A stretch of 62,595 nucleotides of DNA from Thiobacillus sp. 65-1059. Lineage in GTDB: Bacteria > Pseudomonadota > Gammaproteobacteria > Burkholderiales > Thiobacillaceae. The stretch lies in NCBI GenBank assembly GCA_001897675.1, contig MKUE01000004.1, positions 1-62,595 on the forward strand, given 5' to 3'. The notes under the pieces were generated by a model. It saw only the letters and a list, made by a program, of their open reading frames with translations. It ran no database searches and was not told where the DNA came from. Position 1 is the stretch's first letter. Each line of letters opens with the position of its first letter. This document shows positions 15,807 through 33,411 of the stretch, in pieces. A program made the translations under genes and the position numbers.

Positions 15807-16976
15807 GTGCGTATGAGCATGATGTCCCCGACTGCCCCCGACTTTTCCGGTCTCGACTGCCTGTCCACCGGCGCGCTGGTGCTGGGTGCCGACGGCAGGA
15901 TCGTGTACGTCAACCCGGCTGCCGAGAGCCTGCTTGGCGTGTCGGGCGCATTGCTGGCGGGCGATCATGTCGAGCGGGTGTTCGAGCGCAGCCCCGAGCT
16001 GCTGGCGGCGATCCGGACCGCGCGCAGCGAACTGGAAACGGTCATCGAATACGAGCTCGATGTGGCGGCGAGCGGCCATCCGCCGATTCGCCTCGGCTGC
16101 AGCATTTCACCGCTGGATGCACCGGCGCATGCCGTATTGATCGAAATGCGCGCGGTCGATCCGCATCTGCGCATCGCCCGGCTGGAGCAGACGCGCCTGC
16201 AGCAGGAGGCCAACCGCGAATTGCTGCGCAACCTGGCGCACGAGATCAAAAATCCGCTCGGCGGCATTCGCGGCGCGGCGCAATTGCTGGAACGCGAACT
16301 GCCGCGCGAGTCCCTGCGCGAATACACGCAGGTCATCATCAAGGAATCCGACCGTTTGCAATCGCTGACTGAGCGTTTGCTGACGCCGCACCGCACGCCC
16401 CGTTTTGGTGCAGTGAATATCCATGAGGTGCTGGAACGGGTGCGCAGCCTGATCCTGGCTGAAACGCCGGGCGTGACCTTGCGGCGCGACTACGACACCA
16501 GCTTGCCGGAAATCCGTGCCGACGCCGAACAGTTGATCCAGGCCACGCTCAATATCGCACGCAACGCCGTGCAGGCAATGCACGGTAACGGGCATGGGCA
16601 CGGTAACGGGCATGGGCACGGTAACGGGCATGGGCACGGTAACGGGCATGGGCACGGTAACGGGCATGGGCACGGTAACGGGCACGGCCAGAGCCAGGGC
16701 GAGATCGTTTTCAAGACCCGGGTGGCGCGCCAGATTACGCTGGAAAGCCGGCGTTACCGCCTGGGCCTGCGCGTCGAGATCATCGACAATGGCCCCGGCG
16801 TGCCGGAGGATATCCGCGAGCAGATTTTCTATCCGCTGGTGTCGGGACGCGAAGGCGGCAGTGGTCTTGGGCTGGCGGTCGCGCAGACGCTGATCGTGCA
16901 GAACCACGGCACCATCGACTGCGAAAGCAGTCCCGGACATACCGTGTTCGCGATTTTTCTACCCTTTCCTGCCTGA
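15807..16976 (+). CDS. ntrB: Nitrogen regulation sensor histidine kinase NtrB, with a His/Gly/Asn repeat insert
   Basis: NtrB phosphorylates or dephosphorylates NtrC according to PII status. Up to 389 residues comprise an N-terminal PAS domain (about 20-125), the H-box LAHEIKNPLGGIRG with His145, an N-box NIARNAVQAM, and the ATP-lid motifs DNGPGVPEDI and GREGGSGLGLAVAQ. Residues 259-294, between the N-box and the next strand, are six copies of HGNGHG encoded by an 18-bp tandem repeat, which ordinary NtrB proteins lack. The start is uncertain: GTG 15807 or ATG at 15813, 15819 or 15822, with no strong ribosome site. ntrC follows after 5 bp. Confidence 0.93.
   Translation: MRMSMMSPTAPDFSGLDCLSTGALVLGADGRIVYVNPAAESLLGVSGALLAGDHVERVFERSPELLAAIRTARSELETVIEYELDVAASGHPPIRLGCSISPLDAPAHAVLIEMRAVDPHLRIARLEQTRLQQEANRELLRNLAHEIKNPLGGIRGAAQLLERELPRESLREYTQVIIKESDRLQSLTERLLTPHRTPRFGAVNIHEVLERVRSLILAETPGVTLRRDYDTSLPEIRADAEQLIQATLNIARNAVQAMHGNGHGHGNGHGHGNGHGHGNGHGHGNGHGHGNGHGQSQGEIVFKTRVARQITLESRRYRLGLRVEIIDNGPGVPEDIREQIFYPLVSGREGGSGLGLAVAQTLIVQNHGTIDCESSPGHTVFAIFLPFPA
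16581..16688 (+). repeat. 18-bp in-frame tandem repeat inside ntrB (six copies)
   Basis: The unit CACGGTAACGGGCATGGG occurs five times perfectly (16581-16670), then once with two synonymous changes (16671-16688). Each copy encodes HGNGHG. Because the unit is a multiple of three, copy-number change would not break the frame. Confidence 0.97.
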
Positions 16977-25166: not shown

Positions 25167-26063
25167 CTACTGCGCGCGCGCGGGAAAGCTCAGGCGGTCG
25201 TAATAGCGGCCGCGATAGAGCAGGCGGCGGTGCCGGGGGGAATCGGAGAACGCGTTGCGGGTGTGCAGCACGTTGTTGCAGATGAGCCCCATGCCCGGTC
25301 GCAAGCGGGCGGTGAGGAGGTATTCGGAGCCGGCGAGGATGTCGGCCAGGGTTTTGACCGCGGCTTGCGTGACGGCATCGCCTTTCCAGATGATCGAGCG
25401 GGTGCGCGCGGTGTAGCGCATGTAAAGAAAGCCTTGCACGGGATCGACCGCGAACACCGGGCCGCTCTGCTCGGGCCGGGCCACGCTGTCCTCGTCCATG
25501 CGCGCAGGGATCGTCATCGCGTCGGGCCGCATCAGCGCGGCGACGTAATCGGGGTTGACGTCGCGCAGCTGGAGGTAGGCGATTTCGTGGTCGAGCAGCG
25601 CGTTCTCGCCGCCGGCCTCGGCATCCTGCGCGCAGTGCAGCGTCATGCCGAGGATGCGGCGGTCGAGCGCGTTGTAATAGCCGTCGGTGTGCCAGTTGAT
25701 CGGCTTGTGCGTGTAGGGAATGAAGTCGCCGCGTGCGTTGCCGGCGTCGCCCGCCGGCGTGATGCTGGACAGCCCGTCCTCGTCGGCGAGATAGTTGCCT
25801 TCCAGGCGAACGAGGCCGAGCTGGCGCGCCAGTTGATGCGGGATCGACTTGTCGGCGGCGGGCAGGTGCGGCGCGCTGTAGATCGCCATGTTTGCGCGTG
25901 CGCAGCGCGATTCGAGGGCGCCGAATTCATCCGCGCTCAGGCACCGCGGATCGGCCAGCGGCACGACCAGTGCGTCGGCGCTGCGCGGGTATGCCGCGAG
26001 CTTGGCGTCGCGCCAGGCGCGATAGCCGCTTTCGTTGGCCAGGTCGAAAGGCGAACTCGCCAT
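25167..26063 (-). CDS. TauD/TfdA-type Fe(II)/2-oxoglutarate dioxygenase
   Basis: The 298-residue protein has the iron ligands His125 and Asp127 in NWHTDGYYN, a distal His267 in [10 protein letters not shown], and a nearby Arg (Arg280 region) for 2-oxoglutarate. These are the features of TauD-family oxygenases. True TauD releases sulfite from taurine. Here no sulfonate transporter is adjacent, and the gene ends the minus-strand operon that faces dsr, so a sulfur-linked substrate is plausible but unproven. It is preceded after 8 bp by the 206-aa unknown gene. Substrate assignment is open. Confidence 0.85.
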
Positions 26064-26071
26064 GCCGCGCC

Positions 26072-26692
26072 TTATTCCGGCGGCAGCATGTCGGGCGAAC
26101 CGAAGCCGCGCTTGACCGGCGCATCGGACAGCAGACCCTGGAAGCTCTTGCGCACCGTGCCCATCATTTCGGGCATTTCGATGTCCATGATCTGGTCCAT
26201 GATCCAGGTCTTGTCGTCCTCGCCCATCTCGTCGCGGATCTGCAGGCCGAGGAAGCGCAAAGCCGGGAAGCTGGCCTTCTCGTCGTCGGGGAATTCGAAT
26301 TCCGCGTAGTCGGCGAAGCGGCGGTTGAGGAAATCGATGAGTTCGGCCTTGAAGTTGCGGCCGGGATCGGGGCCGACCACGCTGATGATGTTCTCTTCCA
26401 TCACTTCGCCGAGCCGGTTGGCGATCGCCTGCAGTACTGCGACACGGCGTTCCGGCGTCAGCGAGGCGTAGGCCATGCGGTCGCAGTAATGCACCAGGAA
26501 GGCGAGGCATTCGGCGATCAGCTTGAAGCCGCGCGCCGGAGTGATGATGTCGTAGTTCTCGTGGCCGAGGTTGTCTATCGCCTTGTCGGTGACGCGCCAG
26601 ATGGTGGAGGCCACCGAGCTGGCGATTTCCTCGGCACTGCGTTCGCCGTCCCTTTTGAACCAGACGGTACGGACTCTGACGGGTTTGACCAT
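26072..26692 (-). CDS. Unknown conserved-looking protein (206 aa) in the sulfur-auxiliary operon
   Basis: I do not recognise the family. The soluble protein begins MVKPVRVRTVWFKRDGERSAEEIASS and is rich in acidic and helical segments (TVWRVTDKAIDNLGHENYDI, AFLVHYCDRMAYASLTPER). It has one obvious Cys (in VHYCDRM) and no signal peptide or membrane helix. The C-terminus ends GSPDMLPPE. It lies 8 bp before the dioxygenase and 21 bp after the sulfurtransferase gene, so it is almost certainly co-transcribed with them. A CAGGAG-type ribosome site precedes the ATG. Its role cannot be inferred beyond its neighbours. Confidence 0.8.
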   Translation of the reverse strand: MVKPVRVRTVWFKRDGERSAEEIASSVASTIWRVTDKAIDNLGHENYDIITPARGFKLIAECLAFLVHYCDRMAYASLTPERRVAVLQAIANRLGEVMEENIISVVGPDPGRNFKAELIDFLNRRFADYAEFEFPDDEKASFPALRFLGLQIRDEMGEDDKTWIMDQIMDIEMPEMMGTVRKSFQGLLSDAPVKRGFGSPDMLPPE

Positions 26693-26713: not shown

Positions 26714-27565
26714 CTAGGCGACGTCTCCTGTGGCGACGGGGCGTTGCGGGTCGCGAATCCACTCGCTCCATGAGCCGGAATACAATTTCGATCCGGGCAG
26801 GCCGGCGATTTCCATCGCCAGAATGTTGTGGCAGGCGGTGACGCCGGAGCCACAGGTGTGGACGACGTTTTCGGGTGCCACGCCGTTCAGGATGCCCAGG
26901 AAGTTGTCGCGCAACTCGGCGGCCGGCAGGTAGGTGCCGTCCAGGTCGAGGTTTTCCTCGAAGACCCAGTTGACGGCGCCAGGGATATGACCGGCGACGC
27001 TGTCGATCGGTTCACGCTCGCCGCTGTAACGCTGCTCGGGACGGGCGTCGATCAGCCGGTGGCCGGGCGCCAGGCGTATGGCTTCGACCGTGGCGGCATC
27101 CACGCCCCAGGCGGGCTCGTCCGGGCAGGGGAAGTGCTGCGGCACGACCGTGGGCAGCGCGTCGCTCAGCGGGCGTTTTTCGCGCGTCCATTTCGGCAGG
27201 CCGCCGTCGAGCAGCGCGACCTTGGCATGCCCGAGTCCGCGCAGCAACCACCACAGCCGCACTGCCATCGAGCCGAAGCTGTCGTCGTAGACGACGACTT
27301 GCGTCTCGGCGCCGATGCCCCACTCGCCGAGCCGGGCGCACAGCGCGGCGCGGTCGGGCAAAGGGTGGCGCCCCGATTGCGGGGTGATCGGCGAAGACAG
27401 GTCGTCGTCGAGATGCGCGTAACGCGCACCCGGAATGTGCCCCGCAGCATAGGCCCGTTGACCGGCCGCAGGGTCGGTCAGCGTAAAGCGGCAGTCCACG
27501 ACCACCCAGTCCGGACGACCGAGCTGGGCGGCGAGTTGTTCGGTAGAGACAATAGTAGAAGACAT
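26714..27565 (-). CDS. sseA: Thiosulfate/3-mercaptopyruvate sulfurtransferase (tandem rhodanese)
   Basis: The 283-residue protein has two rhodanese domains. The N-terminal one (about 8-130) lacks a catalytic Cys; the C-terminal one (about 155-270) has Cys238 in HTCGSGVTAC, where the CGSGVT loop is typical of 3-mercaptopyruvate sulfurtransferases. Such enzymes form a persulfide and pass it to acceptors. Here it could feed sulfur into the DsrC/DsrEFH relay, because it sits in the operon with a DsrC homologue. The start MSSTIVSTEQ is chosen over an upstream arginine-rich extension. The symbol is by family resemblance. Confidence 0.87.
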   Translation of the reverse strand: MSSTIVSTEQLAAQLGRPDWVVVDCRFTLTDPAAGQRAYAAGHIPGARYAHLDDDLSSPITPQSGRHPLPDRAALCARLGEWGIGAETQVVVYDDSFGSMAVRLWWLLRGLGHAKVALLDGGLPKWTREKRPLSDALPTVVPQHFPCPDEPAWGVDAATVEAIRLAPGHRLIDARPEQRYSGEREPIDSVAGHIPGAVNWVFEENLDLDGTYLPAAELRDNFLGILNGVAPENVVHTCGSGVTACHNILAMEIAGLPGSKLYSGSWSEWIRDPQRPVATGDVA

Positions 27566-27646: not shown

Positions 27647-27979
27647 TTAGTAGCCGCCCTTGCCGTACGGCTTGGTCAGGCCGGCGACGCGAGCCGCTTG
27701 GCGCGCGGGCTGGTTGGGGAACAGCTCGTACAGCTTTTTCTTCCAGTCGGTGCCCGGGTACAGGTCTTCCATCTCGGACAGCATGTTGCGGAAGTTGGGG
27801 GTCTGGCCGTCTTCCTTGTACTTGTCGCGCATGAAATTGATGACCGTCCAGTGCTCGTCGGTCAGCGTGATTTTTTCGGCCGCGGCGATGACCGGGGGAA
27901 CGTCGTCGCTGAAGTTGGCCTCCAGCAGAAAGTCCTCTTCACCGGTTTCCAGCTCTTCGCCGTTTACAACATAAGACAT
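27647..27979 (-). CDS. DsrC/TusE-family protein without cysteines
   Basis: The 110-residue protein aligns with DsrC over its length (NGEELETGEEDFLLEA, DEHWTVINFMRDKY, KKKLYELFPNQPARQAARVAGLTKP). It lacks both redox cysteines: the position of CysB is Ala (RQAARVAG instead of KQACKIAG), and the tail is KPYGKGGY instead of KPTGCI. The whole protein has no Cys. It cannot carry DsrC trisulfide or thiolate chemistry, so a structural or regulatory role is likely; cysteine-poor DsrC relatives with presumed regulatory roles have been noted in the literature. The start MSYVVNG is fixed by AAAGGAG just upstream. Confidence 0.9.
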   Translation of the reverse strand: MSYVVNGEELETGEEDFLLEANFSDDVPPVIAAAEKITLTDEHWTVINFMRDKYKEDGQTPNFRNMLSEMEDLYPGTDWKKKLYELFPNQPARQAARVAGLTKPYGKGGY

Positions 27980-28002: not shown

Positions 28003-28662
28003 CTAAAGAATCGCCGGAATGACCGGCGCGATGGATTTATGCGGGATGAATATCCCGCAGCCTAACAAGCGGTTGCGTCCCAGGCCTTCGTCCTGCAGCT
28101 GCAGGGACTTGTGCGGGGGGACGTCGTGCAGCATCAGGCTGTAGCCATACAGCGGGCCTGAGGTGCTTTGCAGGGTTTGCTGCTTGCCGCAGATGAAACC
28201 GCAACGCAACTGGAAGCGGCCGTCCAGTTCGCGCATCACATCCTGCACGAATTGTTCTTCACCCGCGCTGCCCGTGTCAACAAAGTGCGCGTAGATGTTG
28301 GCGAACGGGCTGAATTCGCGGGTCTTGAAGTCGCCAATCTGCAAGACGTGGCCGGCCAGGTCGAGCGTCTGGCCGACCAGCCGCTGCATGGCGTCCACCC
28401 GCGCCCTGGGCACGCGCAGAAACAGCTTGGTGCGCCGGTTGATGTTGAGCGTGGCGTCACCGCTGTTGGTTTCCGCGCCCTTCAGGTGCTGAATGCCGAT
28501 GCCCGGCTCTTCGCCCAGCCACGGCACCAGCTCTTGCAGCGCGACGGACAGCAATTGCGCATTCTCGGTCGGGATGGTGGTGCCGACCAGATCGAACTGC
28601 AGGTCGATCATGCGCGGCGCGTACTCCTCAGGTTTGTTTTCAGGCCAGCCCGCCCAGTTCAT
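28003..28662 (-). CDS. Cas6/RAMP-like protein (type I-MYXAN Cas6/Cmx6 family) without a CRISPR array
   Basis: The 219-residue protein shows the two-ferredoxin-fold RAMP pattern: IDLQFDLVGTTIP and LVPWLG at the N-terminus, a central LFLRVPRARVDAMQRLVGQTLDLAGHVLQIG, and a C-terminal glycine-rich loop GLGRNRLLGCG (residues 193-203). I recognise this as the Cas6/Cmx6 family of I-MYXAN systems. No array, Cas3, Cas5, Cas7 or Cas8 gene is present in the window. The start MNWAGWPENK overlaps the 73-aa gene as ATGA. Catalytic activity is unknown. Its operon partners are sulfur-metabolism proteins. Confidence 0.68.
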   Translation of the reverse strand: MNWAGWPENKPEEYAPRMIDLQFDLVGTTIPTENAQLLSVALQELVPWLGEEPGIGIQHLKGAETNSGDATLNINRRTKLFLRVPRARVDAMQRLVGQTLDLAGHVLQIGDFKTREFSPFANIYAHFVDTGSAGEEQFVQDVMRELDGRFQLRCGFICGKQQTLQSTSGPLYGYSLMLHDVPPHKSLQLQDEGLGRNRLLGCGIFIPHKSIAPVIPAIL

Positions 28663-28880
28663 GGCGCGTCTCCCGTGTGGTCCCTGGCCCAGGCCTGCAT
28701 CAGTTCGCCCCATTTCTGCGCACTGGCCGGATCGACGTCGAATATGGTGAAGCGCTTGTTCTCGCGGATACGGATGCGCAGGAACGGCACACCGCCCGCT
28801 TCGTGCGTCAGGTGCTGAAACTCGATTTCCTGGCCGCCGAATGGCAGCCGCAATTTATCCAGGGGCGTAATCTCAGGCAT
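28659..28880 (-). CDS. Small unknown protein (73 aa), first gene of the operon divergent from dsr
   Basis: The protein begins MPEITPLDKLRLPFGGQEIE and has a core FLRIRIRENKRFTIFDVDPASAQKWGELMQAW that predicts a compact beta-then-helix fold. It has no Cys, membrane helix or known motif that I can name. It overlaps the Cas6-like gene by 4 bp (ATGA), which indicates coupled translation and suggests that the two products act together. It is the promoter-proximal gene facing dsrA. Confidence 0.78.
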   Translation of the reverse strand: MPEITPLDKLRLPFGGQEIEFQHLTHEAGGVPFLRIRIRENKRFTIFDVDPASAQKWGELMQAWARDHTGDAP

Positions 28881-29258
28881 GGAATCTCAATCCGTGTAGC
28901 TACAGCTCGTTGATAGGGTTGCGTTGCCGGGCGATGCAACCAGGCGTTAATTTAAATTGGGGAGGGGAGCAGGGTTTCAACCCTTCTCCGTACGTGGACT
29001 TGCGTTCGCAACAATATTTTAATACTCTAATTGATTCCGGTAGCGGGCACGTAATGTCTCACTCTTTGCTTGGGTGGGGCATTCCCGCGTTGGGGAAAAC
29101 GATCTACTCCTTTTGGGTAGGTTGCGGCCTACCGCGATGGAGTAACCGGTTTACCCATGAGAATGATGGTGGCAAGGCTGTCAACTCAATAGGATGGCGG
29201 GACACCGTTGAGCTGTCGGCTTAAGCGGGCATTTCGAAATGTTCTAGGAGAGAAAACT
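28881..29258. promoter_or_regulatory. Divergent control region between the auxiliary operon and dsrA
   Basis: This 378-bp gene-free region must hold promoters for both directions. It has three short palindromes: AATTTAAATT (28949-28958), AGGGTT-TC-AACCCT (28971-28984), and TTGCG-TT-CGCAA (29000-29011). The last overlaps a candidate sigma-70 promoter for dsrA, with TTGCGT at 29000-29005 and TACTCT at 29023-29028 (17-base spacer). An in-frame reading across part of it has no ribosome site and no family-like features and is not annotated. Confidence 0.55.
29000..29028 (+). promoter_or_regulatory. Candidate dsrA promoter overlapped by a palindrome
   Basis: TTGCGT and TACTCT with 17-base spacing give a weak sigma-70-like promoter. 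The -35 hexamer is part of the palindrome TTGCGTTCGCAA, so a bound regulator could block or recruit polymerase here. The predicted leader is about 220 bases. Confidence 0.35.
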
Positions 29259-30563
29259 ATGGCAAAGAAGATGATTGATACGCCCAATCTGGACGAGCTC
29301 GAGAAAGGCCCGTGGCCCAGTTTCGTGACCGGCCTGAAGCGTTTGGCCAATGACAACGACATGATGGTTGACCTGATGGGTCAGCTGGAAACGTCCTACC
29401 AGCACATGAAGGGCTACTGGAAGGGCGGTACGGTTGGCGTGTTCGGCTACGGCGGCGGCGTGATTCCCCGCTTTACCGAGCTGAAGGATGAGAACCATCA
29501 GCCGCTGTTCCCCGAGGCAGCCGAGTTCCACACCCTGCGCATCCAGCCGCCCCCCGGCATGCATTACACCTCCGATCTGCTGCGCAAGATGTGCGACGCC
29601 TGGTCGGCCACCGGCGGCTCGGGTCTGATCGGGCTTCACGGCCAGTCCGGCGACATCATGCTTCAGGGTGTCAAGACGGCTGACGTGCAGCGCGCTTTCG
29701 ACGAGTTCAACGAAATGGGCTTCGACCTCGGCGGCGCGGGCCCGGCTCTGCGCACCTCGATGTCTTGCGTTGGTGCGGCCCGCTGCGAGCATTCCTGTTT
29801 TGACGAAGCCAAGGCGCTGCGCACTGTCATCAACAACAACATCGATGACATGCACCGCCCGTCCCTGCCCTACAAGTTCAAGTTCAAGTTCTCCGGTTGC
29901 GGAAACGACTGCGTCAACGCCATCCAGCGTTCCGACATGGCGACCATCGGCACCTGGCGCGACAACATCCGCGTCAACGAAGCCCTGGTTCAGGACTACT
30001 TCAAGGCCCACGGCATGAACGATCTCGTCAATGACGTGGTCAGCAAGTGCCCGACCAAGGCCATTACCCTGGTGTCCACCGATAAGTTCCAGGCCAGCGA
30101 GCATGTTTCCGCTGCCAACCTGGGCGACGGCAACACCCTGTGCATCGACAACAAGAACTGCGTGCGCTGCATGCACTGCCTGAACGTTATCCCCGGCGGT
30201 CTGCGGACTGGCGTGGACAAGGGCGTCACCATCCTGGTTGGCGGCAAGGGCGTGCTGAAGATTGGCGCAACCATGGGTACCGTGGTGATCCCGTTCATGA
30301 AGCTCGAGTCCGACGAGGATTTCGAGAAGCTGAACGAGTTGTCGCGCAACATCATCGACTTCTTCGCGGAAAATGCGCTTGAGCATGAGCGCACCGGTGA
30401 AATGATCGAGCGTATCGGTCTGGCCAACTTCCTCGAGGGTATGGACATCCCGGTTGATCCCAACATGATCAGCCAGCCGCGTTCCAACCCCTACTTCCGT
30501 TCCGATGACTGGGACGAGCAAGTCGAGAAGTGGAACGAGTACAAGCAGTCGTCAGCCGCTTAA
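29259..30563 (+). CDS. dsrA: Reverse-type dissimilatory sulfite reductase alpha subunit
   Basis: DsrA and DsrB form the siroheme sulfite reductase that here oxidises DsrC-bound sulfur to sulfite. The 434-residue protein has the siroheme-[4Fe-4S] ligands Cys170 and Cys176 (SCVGAARCEHSC) and Cys214 and Cys218 (FSGCGNDC), then an inserted ferredoxin domain with CIDNKNCVRCMHCLNVIPGG. The start MAKKMIDTPNLDELE is set by AGGAG nine bases upstream. The direction of the pathway (oxidative) is inferred from dsrEFH and dsrL downstream. Confidence 0.98.
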   Translation: MAKKMIDTPNLDELEKGPWPSFVTGLKRLANDNDMMVDLMGQLETSYQHMKGYWKGGTVGVFGYGGGVIPRFTELKDENHQPLFPEAAEFHTLRIQPPPGMHYTSDLLRKMCDAWSATGGSGLIGLHGQSGDIMLQGVKTADVQRAFDEFNEMGFDLGGAGPALRTSMSCVGAARCEHSCFDEAKALRTVINNNIDDMHRPSLPYKFKFKFSGCGNDCVNAIQRSDMATIGTWRDNIRVNEALVQDYFKAHGMNDLVNDVVSKCPTKAITLVSTDKFQASEHVSAANLGDGNTLCIDNKNCVRCMHCLNVIPGGLRTGVDKGVTILVGGKGVLKIGATMGTVVIPFMKLESDEDFEKLNELSRNIIDFFAENALEHERTGEMIERIGLANFLEGMDIPVDPNMISQPRSNPYFRSDDWDEQVEKWNEYKQSSAA

Positions 30564-33224: not shown

Positions 33225-33241
33225 GTTCTAAAAAATTCGGA

Positions 33242-33266
33242 TCACCCCGGAGGCATTCCGGGGTGA
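33242..33266 (+). repeat. Perfect 10-bp stem-loop after dsrC
   Basis: TCACCCCGGA (33242-33251) pairs perfectly with TCCGGGGTGA (33257-33266) around GGCAT. CTTCGATATT follows instead of a T-run, so it could be a partial terminator or a 3'-end protecting element between dsrC and dsrM. Confidence 0.75.
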
Positions 33267-33411
33267 CTTCGATATTTAACAGTGTTTCCCAATCGAATGT
33301 GGCTGGGCTATGCCGAGTTTTGCGTTTGATTCGTAAACAGAACGTTGTTAGAGGATACGATTCCGCACACGCTCCAGCACGGGCGGATCGGAGTCCAATA
33401 GGAGATAGGGT

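Follow-up and report, generated by a model that had tools for sequence, protein, structure and literature searches.

Cas6 is the enzyme that produces CRISPR guide RNAs by trimming CRISPR RNAs, which raises the question of why a gene for a Cas6-like protein stands beside dsrA in a sulfur-oxidation region. We addressed this question in a 62,595-nucleotide stretch of DNA from Thiobacillus sp. 65-1059, the whole of which is called the window below. A preliminary description of the locus had proposed an orphan Cas6/RAMP-like protein recruited to sulfur metabolism. The gene, its neighbours and dsrA are arranged as follows.

28003..28662, minus strand: dsr-linked Cas6 homologue, 219 aa (TIGR02807, PF09559, AF2 fold)
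28659..28880, minus strand: DUF6967 protein, 73 aa, first gene of the divergent operon (PF22295, 107.6 bits)
27647..27979, minus strand: DsrC/TusE-family protein (PF04358, 105 bits; TIGR03342, 79 bits)
26714..27565, minus strand: presumed rhodanese-like sulfurtransferase, next in the operon (ORF)
26072..26692, minus strand: 206-aa all-helical protein (AF2 pLDDT 84, all helix)
25167..26070, minus strand: TauD-like dioxygenase (approximate start, taken from the ORF)
29259..30563, plus strand: dsrA (TIGR02064, 485.9 bits, cut-off 392.85)

The family assignment is firmly supported. In profile searches the protein scores 220.3 bits against TIGR02807 (curated cut-off 98.85) and 199.1 bits against PF09559 (curated cut-off 26.7). 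Its AF2 model, with a pLDDT of 91, has a fold that matches Cas6 in comparison with PDB structures, and the loop GLGRNRLLGCG agrees with the C-terminal glycine-rich consensus of Cas6. The profile search and the structure prediction suggested in the preliminary description thus both confirm a Cas6/RAMP-like identity. The window protein belongs to the same family as the Cas6/Cmx6 proteins of type I-MYXAN and of the I-B CAST (TIGR02807, PF09559; PDB 8fcj), and shares 10-11% identity with a Cas6-related protein of Pyrococcus furiosus (3ufc) and with Thermus Cse3/Cas6e (2y8y). Between Cas6 subfamilies, substrates and catalytic residues differ, according to the available part of a review (PMC3727216). 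The dN/dS ratio of the gene ranges from 0.07 to 0.22 in 15 pairs among six Thiobacillus-clade copies, showing that purifying selection acts on it in this clade.

The cas6-like gene is coupled by an ATGA overlap to the 73-aa gene, as first described, and the product of the latter proved to be a DUF6967 protein (PF22295). Rather than facing dsrA, as had been stated, it is divergent from dsrA. The DsrC-like protein lacks the C-terminal cysteines and ends in ...KPYGKGGY; we take this cysteine-less homologue to be RspA-like. The product of 26714..27565 is named here as a rhodanese-like sulfurtransferase on our own reading of its sequence. The 206-aa helical protein of the window has no Pfam match, and one weak match was found among 37 of its relatives. 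A gammaproteobacterial TauD protein (PF02668, 78 bits) served as the reference for the window dioxygenase. Elsewhere in the window, a very stable hairpin lies directly after dsrC (33225-33330, fold z -4.6) and may help to keep dsrC levels separate, and a perfect 18-base tandem repeat of 5.8 copies occupies positions 16580-16687. The same genome contains a partial second dsrA match (G000:C6:7212-7859, 303 bits over the model's first half), which is either a second copy or contamination, the latter being reported at 4% for the assembly.

The arrangement is widely conserved in relatives. Among named genome contigs at least 548 relatives were confirmed, and the 80 most similar to the window protein were compared. 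dsrA is the divergent neighbour of the gene in 78 of these best 80 loci; in two loci (L069 and L075) the contig starts at or just before cas6. The other members of the operon recur in the same best 80: 77 have a DsrC-family gene next to cas6, 76 have the 206-aa helical protein, 75 have DUF6967, 75 have the rhodanese-like protein, and 60 have the TauD-like protein at the position corresponding to 25167..26070. By title, these 80 records belong to betaproteobacterial groups or are assigned no further than Proteobacteria, Pseudomonadota or Gammaproteobacteria, apart from one Rhizobium metagenome-assembled genome (L046), which has a Thiobacillus-like locus and may be misnamed. In gammaproteobacteria the order differs: tauD (11 of 20 stretches), a 63-aa protein (14/20), cas6 and a DsrC-like gene (12/20). 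The 206-aa protein was found in 8, dsrA in 10 and DUF6967 in 2 of the 20 gammaproteobacterial stretches, a set that includes some picked for an unlinked cas6 or an absent dsrA. Three small to mid-size protein families also flank the gammaproteobacterial cas6 (L012:1237-1428, L020:2150-2854 and L012:2711-2920); none of them reaches a Pfam or NCBIfam cut-off.

At the level of the class, the gene tracks dsrA and shows no association with cas1. Among 229 genomes across the class, 76, belonging to 57 family codes, carry the cas6-like gene with one match each, and 78 carry dsrA at a best E below 1e-50 (73 exceed the curated cut-off). Both genes are present in 72 genomes, cas6 alone in 4, dsrA alone in 6 and neither in 147 (Fisher p 6e-47, a guide only, as related genomes are not independent). 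With cas1 there is no association (34 of the 229 genomes with both, p 0.25), and genomes of only 1.1-1.4 Mb (G039, G142, G109) retain the gene without cas1. The survey suggested earlier thus returned a close link to dsrA and none to cas1. In the four genomes with cas6 only (G067, G093, G127 and G186; loci L122-L125) the contig ends close to the module, on the flank expected to hold dsrA. In three of the six with dsrA only (G070, G079 and G110) the dsrA match lies 195, 6 and 658 bases, respectively, from the contig start on the upstream side, and in G123 (L146) other module genes reach the contig start. The remaining two are G207 and G211, of which G207, 99% complete, is as far as seen a real exception. 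The distance between the cas6-like gene and dsrA is 675-4508 bases in 55 of the 76 genomes, and the pair is divergent in all 55. The two genes are not adjacent on a single contig in 17 of the 72 genomes that carry both: 16 have them on different contigs, some of which are perhaps assembly breaks, and in G109 they are 41 kb apart. In a phylum-wide sample the only match among 219 genomes was the window's own, so the family is not general in the phylum. DUF6967 occurs in 7 of the 229 class-sample genomes, 4 of which carry cas6; because these are only 4 of the 76 cas6-positive genomes, DUF6967 is a partner of cas6 in betaproteobacteria and not in general. By co-occurrence and conserved placement, the cas6-like gene is a component of the reverse-Dsr locus. 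Set against the reverse-Dsr cluster as it is known (dsrABEFHCMKLJOPNRS, as in A. vinosum), the gene often stands next to dsrA, in divergent orientation, in beta- and gammaproteobacteria, and does not appear among the A. vinosum-type dsr genes named in the available part of PMC3368242.

Phylogeny separates the dsr-linked proteins from those of CRISPR systems. A maximum-likelihood tree of 72 proteins places 56 dsr-linked proteins on one side of a branch (100/100) and 16 CRISPR-type proteins on the other, the latter comprising six plasmid proteins and ten cyanobacterial proteins known by database label only. Betaproteobacterial (96/87) and gammaproteobacterial (98/96) proteins each form one group, with bootstrap values that are not fully settled. 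A further 16 gammaproteobacterial proteins, including unlinked and dsrA-less ones, fall outside the CRISPR branch in a quick tree (SH-aLRT 99). Alignment A1 used 24 of 30 sequences (L009, L015, L019, L023, L025 and L027 were left out), and L096, whose frame is broken at the start of the match, was excluded from all protein sets. Five of the six plasmid comparators lie in I-MYXAN cas operons with cas genes present; the Gloeobacter gene does not. This protein (L148) is of the TIGR02807 type, lies without annotated cas genes near PAPS-reductase-family genes and a DNA methyltransferase, and possibly represents another non-CRISPR use. Two other origins were considered for the window gene and rejected: its conservation, dN/dS and the tree speak against an orphan left over from a CRISPR locus that was lost, and for a phage-borne gene no phage record matched, and none of seven pattern-matching stretches in viral contigs was confirmed.

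The CRISPR content of the window's own genome was also analyzed. The cas6-like gene is the single TIGR02807 match in the genome, and the single cas1 belongs to a type I-C locus (L142, G000:C122:41000-60000) with cas3c, 5c, 8c, 7c, 1c and 2c and about 73 repeat copies. No cas4 was found among the ORFs scanned at this locus, which has no TIGR02807 gene, and no PF03787 RAMP is present. A CRISPR array with cas genes elsewhere in the genome, whose repeats were its substrate, had been named as what would refute the proposal; an array with cas genes does exist, but it is of type I-C, with its own Cas5c. Beside the window gene, unlike the Cas6 genes of type I-MYXAN and the I-B CAST, there is no cas3, cmx8/cas8a1, cas7 or cas5; its neighbours are dsr genes, DUF6967, the DsrC-like gene and others. 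A crude repeat scan found no array in the window, and among 100 loci a three-copy candidate repeat, a weak one, only at L129; the same scan recovered the I-C array, but an array in only 1 of 5 true CRISPR plasmid loci. No tRNA genes were found in the window, L142 or L174.

Residue conservation provides clues to what the protein retains. The basic positions R76, R77, K79, R83 and R198 and the glycine-rich loop are conserved in dsr-linked proteins, and R83 and the loop glycines are common to these and CRISPR-type Cas6. The dsr-linked branch, in contrast to the I-MYXAN and I-B CAST proteins, has its own residues W48, R77, E135, G159 and H208. Six positions split the two sets: five or all six of the residues occur in 54 of the 56 dsr-linked proteins and four in the other two, whereas CRISPR-type proteins carry at most one; L129 and L134, from the 16 added gammaproteobacterial proteins, carry only three. 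H34 lies where the first long helix begins and is found in 42 of 44 other betaproteobacterial proteins, 29 of 29 gammaproteobacterial proteins and 10 of 16 CRISPR-type proteins. It is kept in 1 of the 12 Thiobacillus-clade copies read (from 34 Thiobacillus-type loci, L042-L075; L077 was left out), the rest having N or S, and H58 is replaced by Q in all 12; the window protein has Q58. By analogy we assume H34 to be the catalytic histidine. The window protein, with N34, therefore lacks the N-terminal histidine feature of Cas6. This histidine was formerly considered typical but is not universal, no catalytic residue is common to all Cas6 subfamilies, and two active Cas6 paralogues have no general acid and base, as far as the review covers these points in the part available (PMC3727216). 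As the histidine is not a required feature, the window protein remains a member of the Cas6 family. Because two otherwise near-invariant histidines are lost, RNA binding appears likelier than cutting in the window's genus, and cleavage would be less likely there than in the branch generally.

A possible RNA partner lies in the space between the divergent genes. The preliminary description had pointed to intercistronic hairpins of the dsr mRNA; in our view the conserved dsrA leader is the better candidate. Its elements are listed below.

28976..29258, plus strand: conserved dsrA leader (alignment A3, 21 Thiobacillus-clade leaders; fold z -2.9)
29096..29257, plus strand: leader core (covariance model from 17 leaders outside the window's Thiobacillus clade)
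29105..29144, plus strand: P1 hairpin or dyad, TACTCC..GGGTAGG / CCTACC..GGAGTA
29205..29228, plus strand: P3 hairpin, immediately before the dsrA ribosome-binding site

Around 290 bases before dsrA align well in the 21 leaders of A3, taken from 34 Thiobacillus-clade leaders with the window counted in, and contain recurring GGGTAG/CTACCC elements, with a hairpin preceding the ribosome-binding site. The fold energy of the leader core is mildly unusual (z -1.8). P1 is nearly invariant in sequence, and in P3 all cells are paired in the 21 leaders. Seventeen leaders of other betaproteobacterial genera share a hairpin ACCTACCC-N4-GGGTAGGT, a nearly invariant CGGAATGATGG block and P3, whose counterpart there shows both-sided changes at 5 of 6 pairs, mostly still paired. 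Over the whole structure these 17 leaders have 11 cells with both-sided changes against 4.3 in shuffles (0/500), and their number of both-sided-change pairs was matched in 57 of 500 shuffles. Covariation within Thiobacillus is weak, with 5 cells against 2.8 (70/500 shuffles) and a covariation score at 3/500, and RNAalifold on the full A3 found almost none (term -0.44).

The covariance model finds the window leader at E 2.7e-7 in 904 kb (R1), as its only match in the window's genome. Within the 82 sources searched, a subset of those available, 14 have a sense-strand match at E up to 0.01; most of these are Thiobacillus, and Sulfuricella-type leaders were not matched. L117 and L100 gave antisense matches at E up to 0.01, which are possible because the element is a near-palindrome. 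In gammaproteobacterial leaders there was no convincing match, with one antisense hit (L154, E 0.74). The motif TACYCCNNNNGGGTAG without mismatch occurs once in the genome, at the P1 of dsrA, so there is no wide regulon; when one mismatch is allowed, its 10 occurrences do not exceed the 15 of its reversed control. The form CC-N4-6-GGGTAG occurs in 69 of 74 betaproteobacterial leaders, with 150 matches on both strands against 2.8 expected from mononucleotide shuffles, although related leaders are not independent. The betaproteobacterial motif forms are not clearly enriched in gammaproteobacteria (4 of 20 regions, below expectation), where 10 of 30 dsrA leaders contain a related dyad, TATCC-N3-6-GGATA, against an expected 0.04. 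A known RNA family was rejected, no Rfam match in the window exceeding the threshold; a relaxed search of the leader gave two chance-level matches (E 1.1 and 5.3). A simple scan found no sigma-70 promoter at the leader.

Collectively, the co-occurrence with dsrA, the divergent placement and the separate branch bear out the proposed recruitment, and we are confident that a Cas6 was recruited into the reverse-Dsr locus. This would have been a single recruitment of a Cas6-family protein, probably preceding the split of the beta- and gammaproteobacterial branches of the gene, which would since have been retained as part of the sulfur-oxidation locus instead of a CRISPR system. Like Cas6, the protein has probably kept the ability to bind RNA, and its target is probably a transcript of the host. 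The likeliest choice is a dsr-locus transcript, whose stability or translation the protein may tune. DUF6967 (in most of the gammaproteobacteria seen, a 63-aa protein) and the cysteine-less DsrC homologue would be its operon partners in this tuning. To judge from shape and neighbourhood, the target could be the conserved dsrA leader and its GGGUAG hairpin, a tentative assignment that is clearly less likely than not. Comparably doubtful is a complete CRISPR-free regulatory system, in which Cas6 would act on the dsrA hairpin leader with DUF6967 and the DsrC homologue as sensor or adaptor and would adjust the expression of sulfur-oxidation enzymes to the cell's sulfur status.

Several other explanations were weighed against RNA binding at the dsr locus. 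The Cas6 fold could be retained with its RNA work lost, the protein being a scaffold or regulator that acts via DUF6967 and the DsrC-like partner. The histidine losses in the Thiobacillus branch and the constancy of the neighbours in betaproteobacteria suit this idea, and W48, E135, H208 and other branch-specific residues could make a protein-binding surface; it nevertheless seems unlikely, as the conserved basic residues and glycine-rich loop, partly shared with CRISPR-type Cas6, argue against it, and so does the activity of some Cas6 proteins without general acid or base (PMC3727216, in the part available). A true Cas6 serving CRISPR arrays in trans, such as the I-C array on contig C122, is far less probable still. 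That array has about 73 repeats, and the NCBIfam model names all 51 A2 members Cas6/Cmx6, but in type I-C the repeats are cut by the system's own Cas5c, whose family acts on repeats with hairpins (PMC3727216, available part), so a Cas6 homologue is not expected to be needed there; the available part of PMC5944118 likewise assigns a locus to I-C partly from the lack of cas6. Neither the absence of association with cas1, including its absence from the small genomes, nor the single candidate repeat at 100 loci in the crude scan fits such a role.

The protein could also, with the TusE-like partner and the dioxygenase, modify tRNA or another structured RNA, the dsr leader being unrelated. TusE takes part in tRNA thiolation in E. 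coli (PMC3397948, available part), and the TauD-like dioxygenase is near in both betaproteobacterial (60 of the best 80) and gammaproteobacterial (11 of 20) loci; this reading is improbable, as the TusE-like partner in the window has no sulfur-carrying cysteines and no RNA-modifying enzyme was identified in the operon. The leader dyad, for its part, may be a DNA operator for another regulator, with the Cas6 homologue acting on a different target. This is compatible with the RNA-binding reading and is judged separately from it, as a possibility of some weight that still falls well short of even. The near-invariance of P1 is as expected of an operator, and DNA binding by DsrC upstream of dsr is reported for A. 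vinosum in the available part of PMC5944118. The mostly paired both-sided changes of P3 suit RNA, and the occurrence of the exact motif at dsrA alone in the genome also counts against the operator.

We know of no Cas6 with a metabolic role. Among open-access papers, judged by title, opening of the abstract and selected passages, none was found linking cas6 to dsr. Both terms occur together in, for example, PMC8226683, PMC5109826, PMC4046663 and PMC3949148. The exaptation of CRISPR modules in general is discussed in PMC6452270, in the part available. The dsr-linked gene is a strong case of a Cas protein in non-defence use. The NCBI model labels all 51 scanned members of the branch 'type I-MYXAN CRISPR-associated', and the annotation of dsr-linked cas6-like genes should change, since the branch tracks a metabolic locus through 57 family codes of one class. 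It also provides a testable lead on the control of the dsr genes, which are central to microbial sulfur oxidation.
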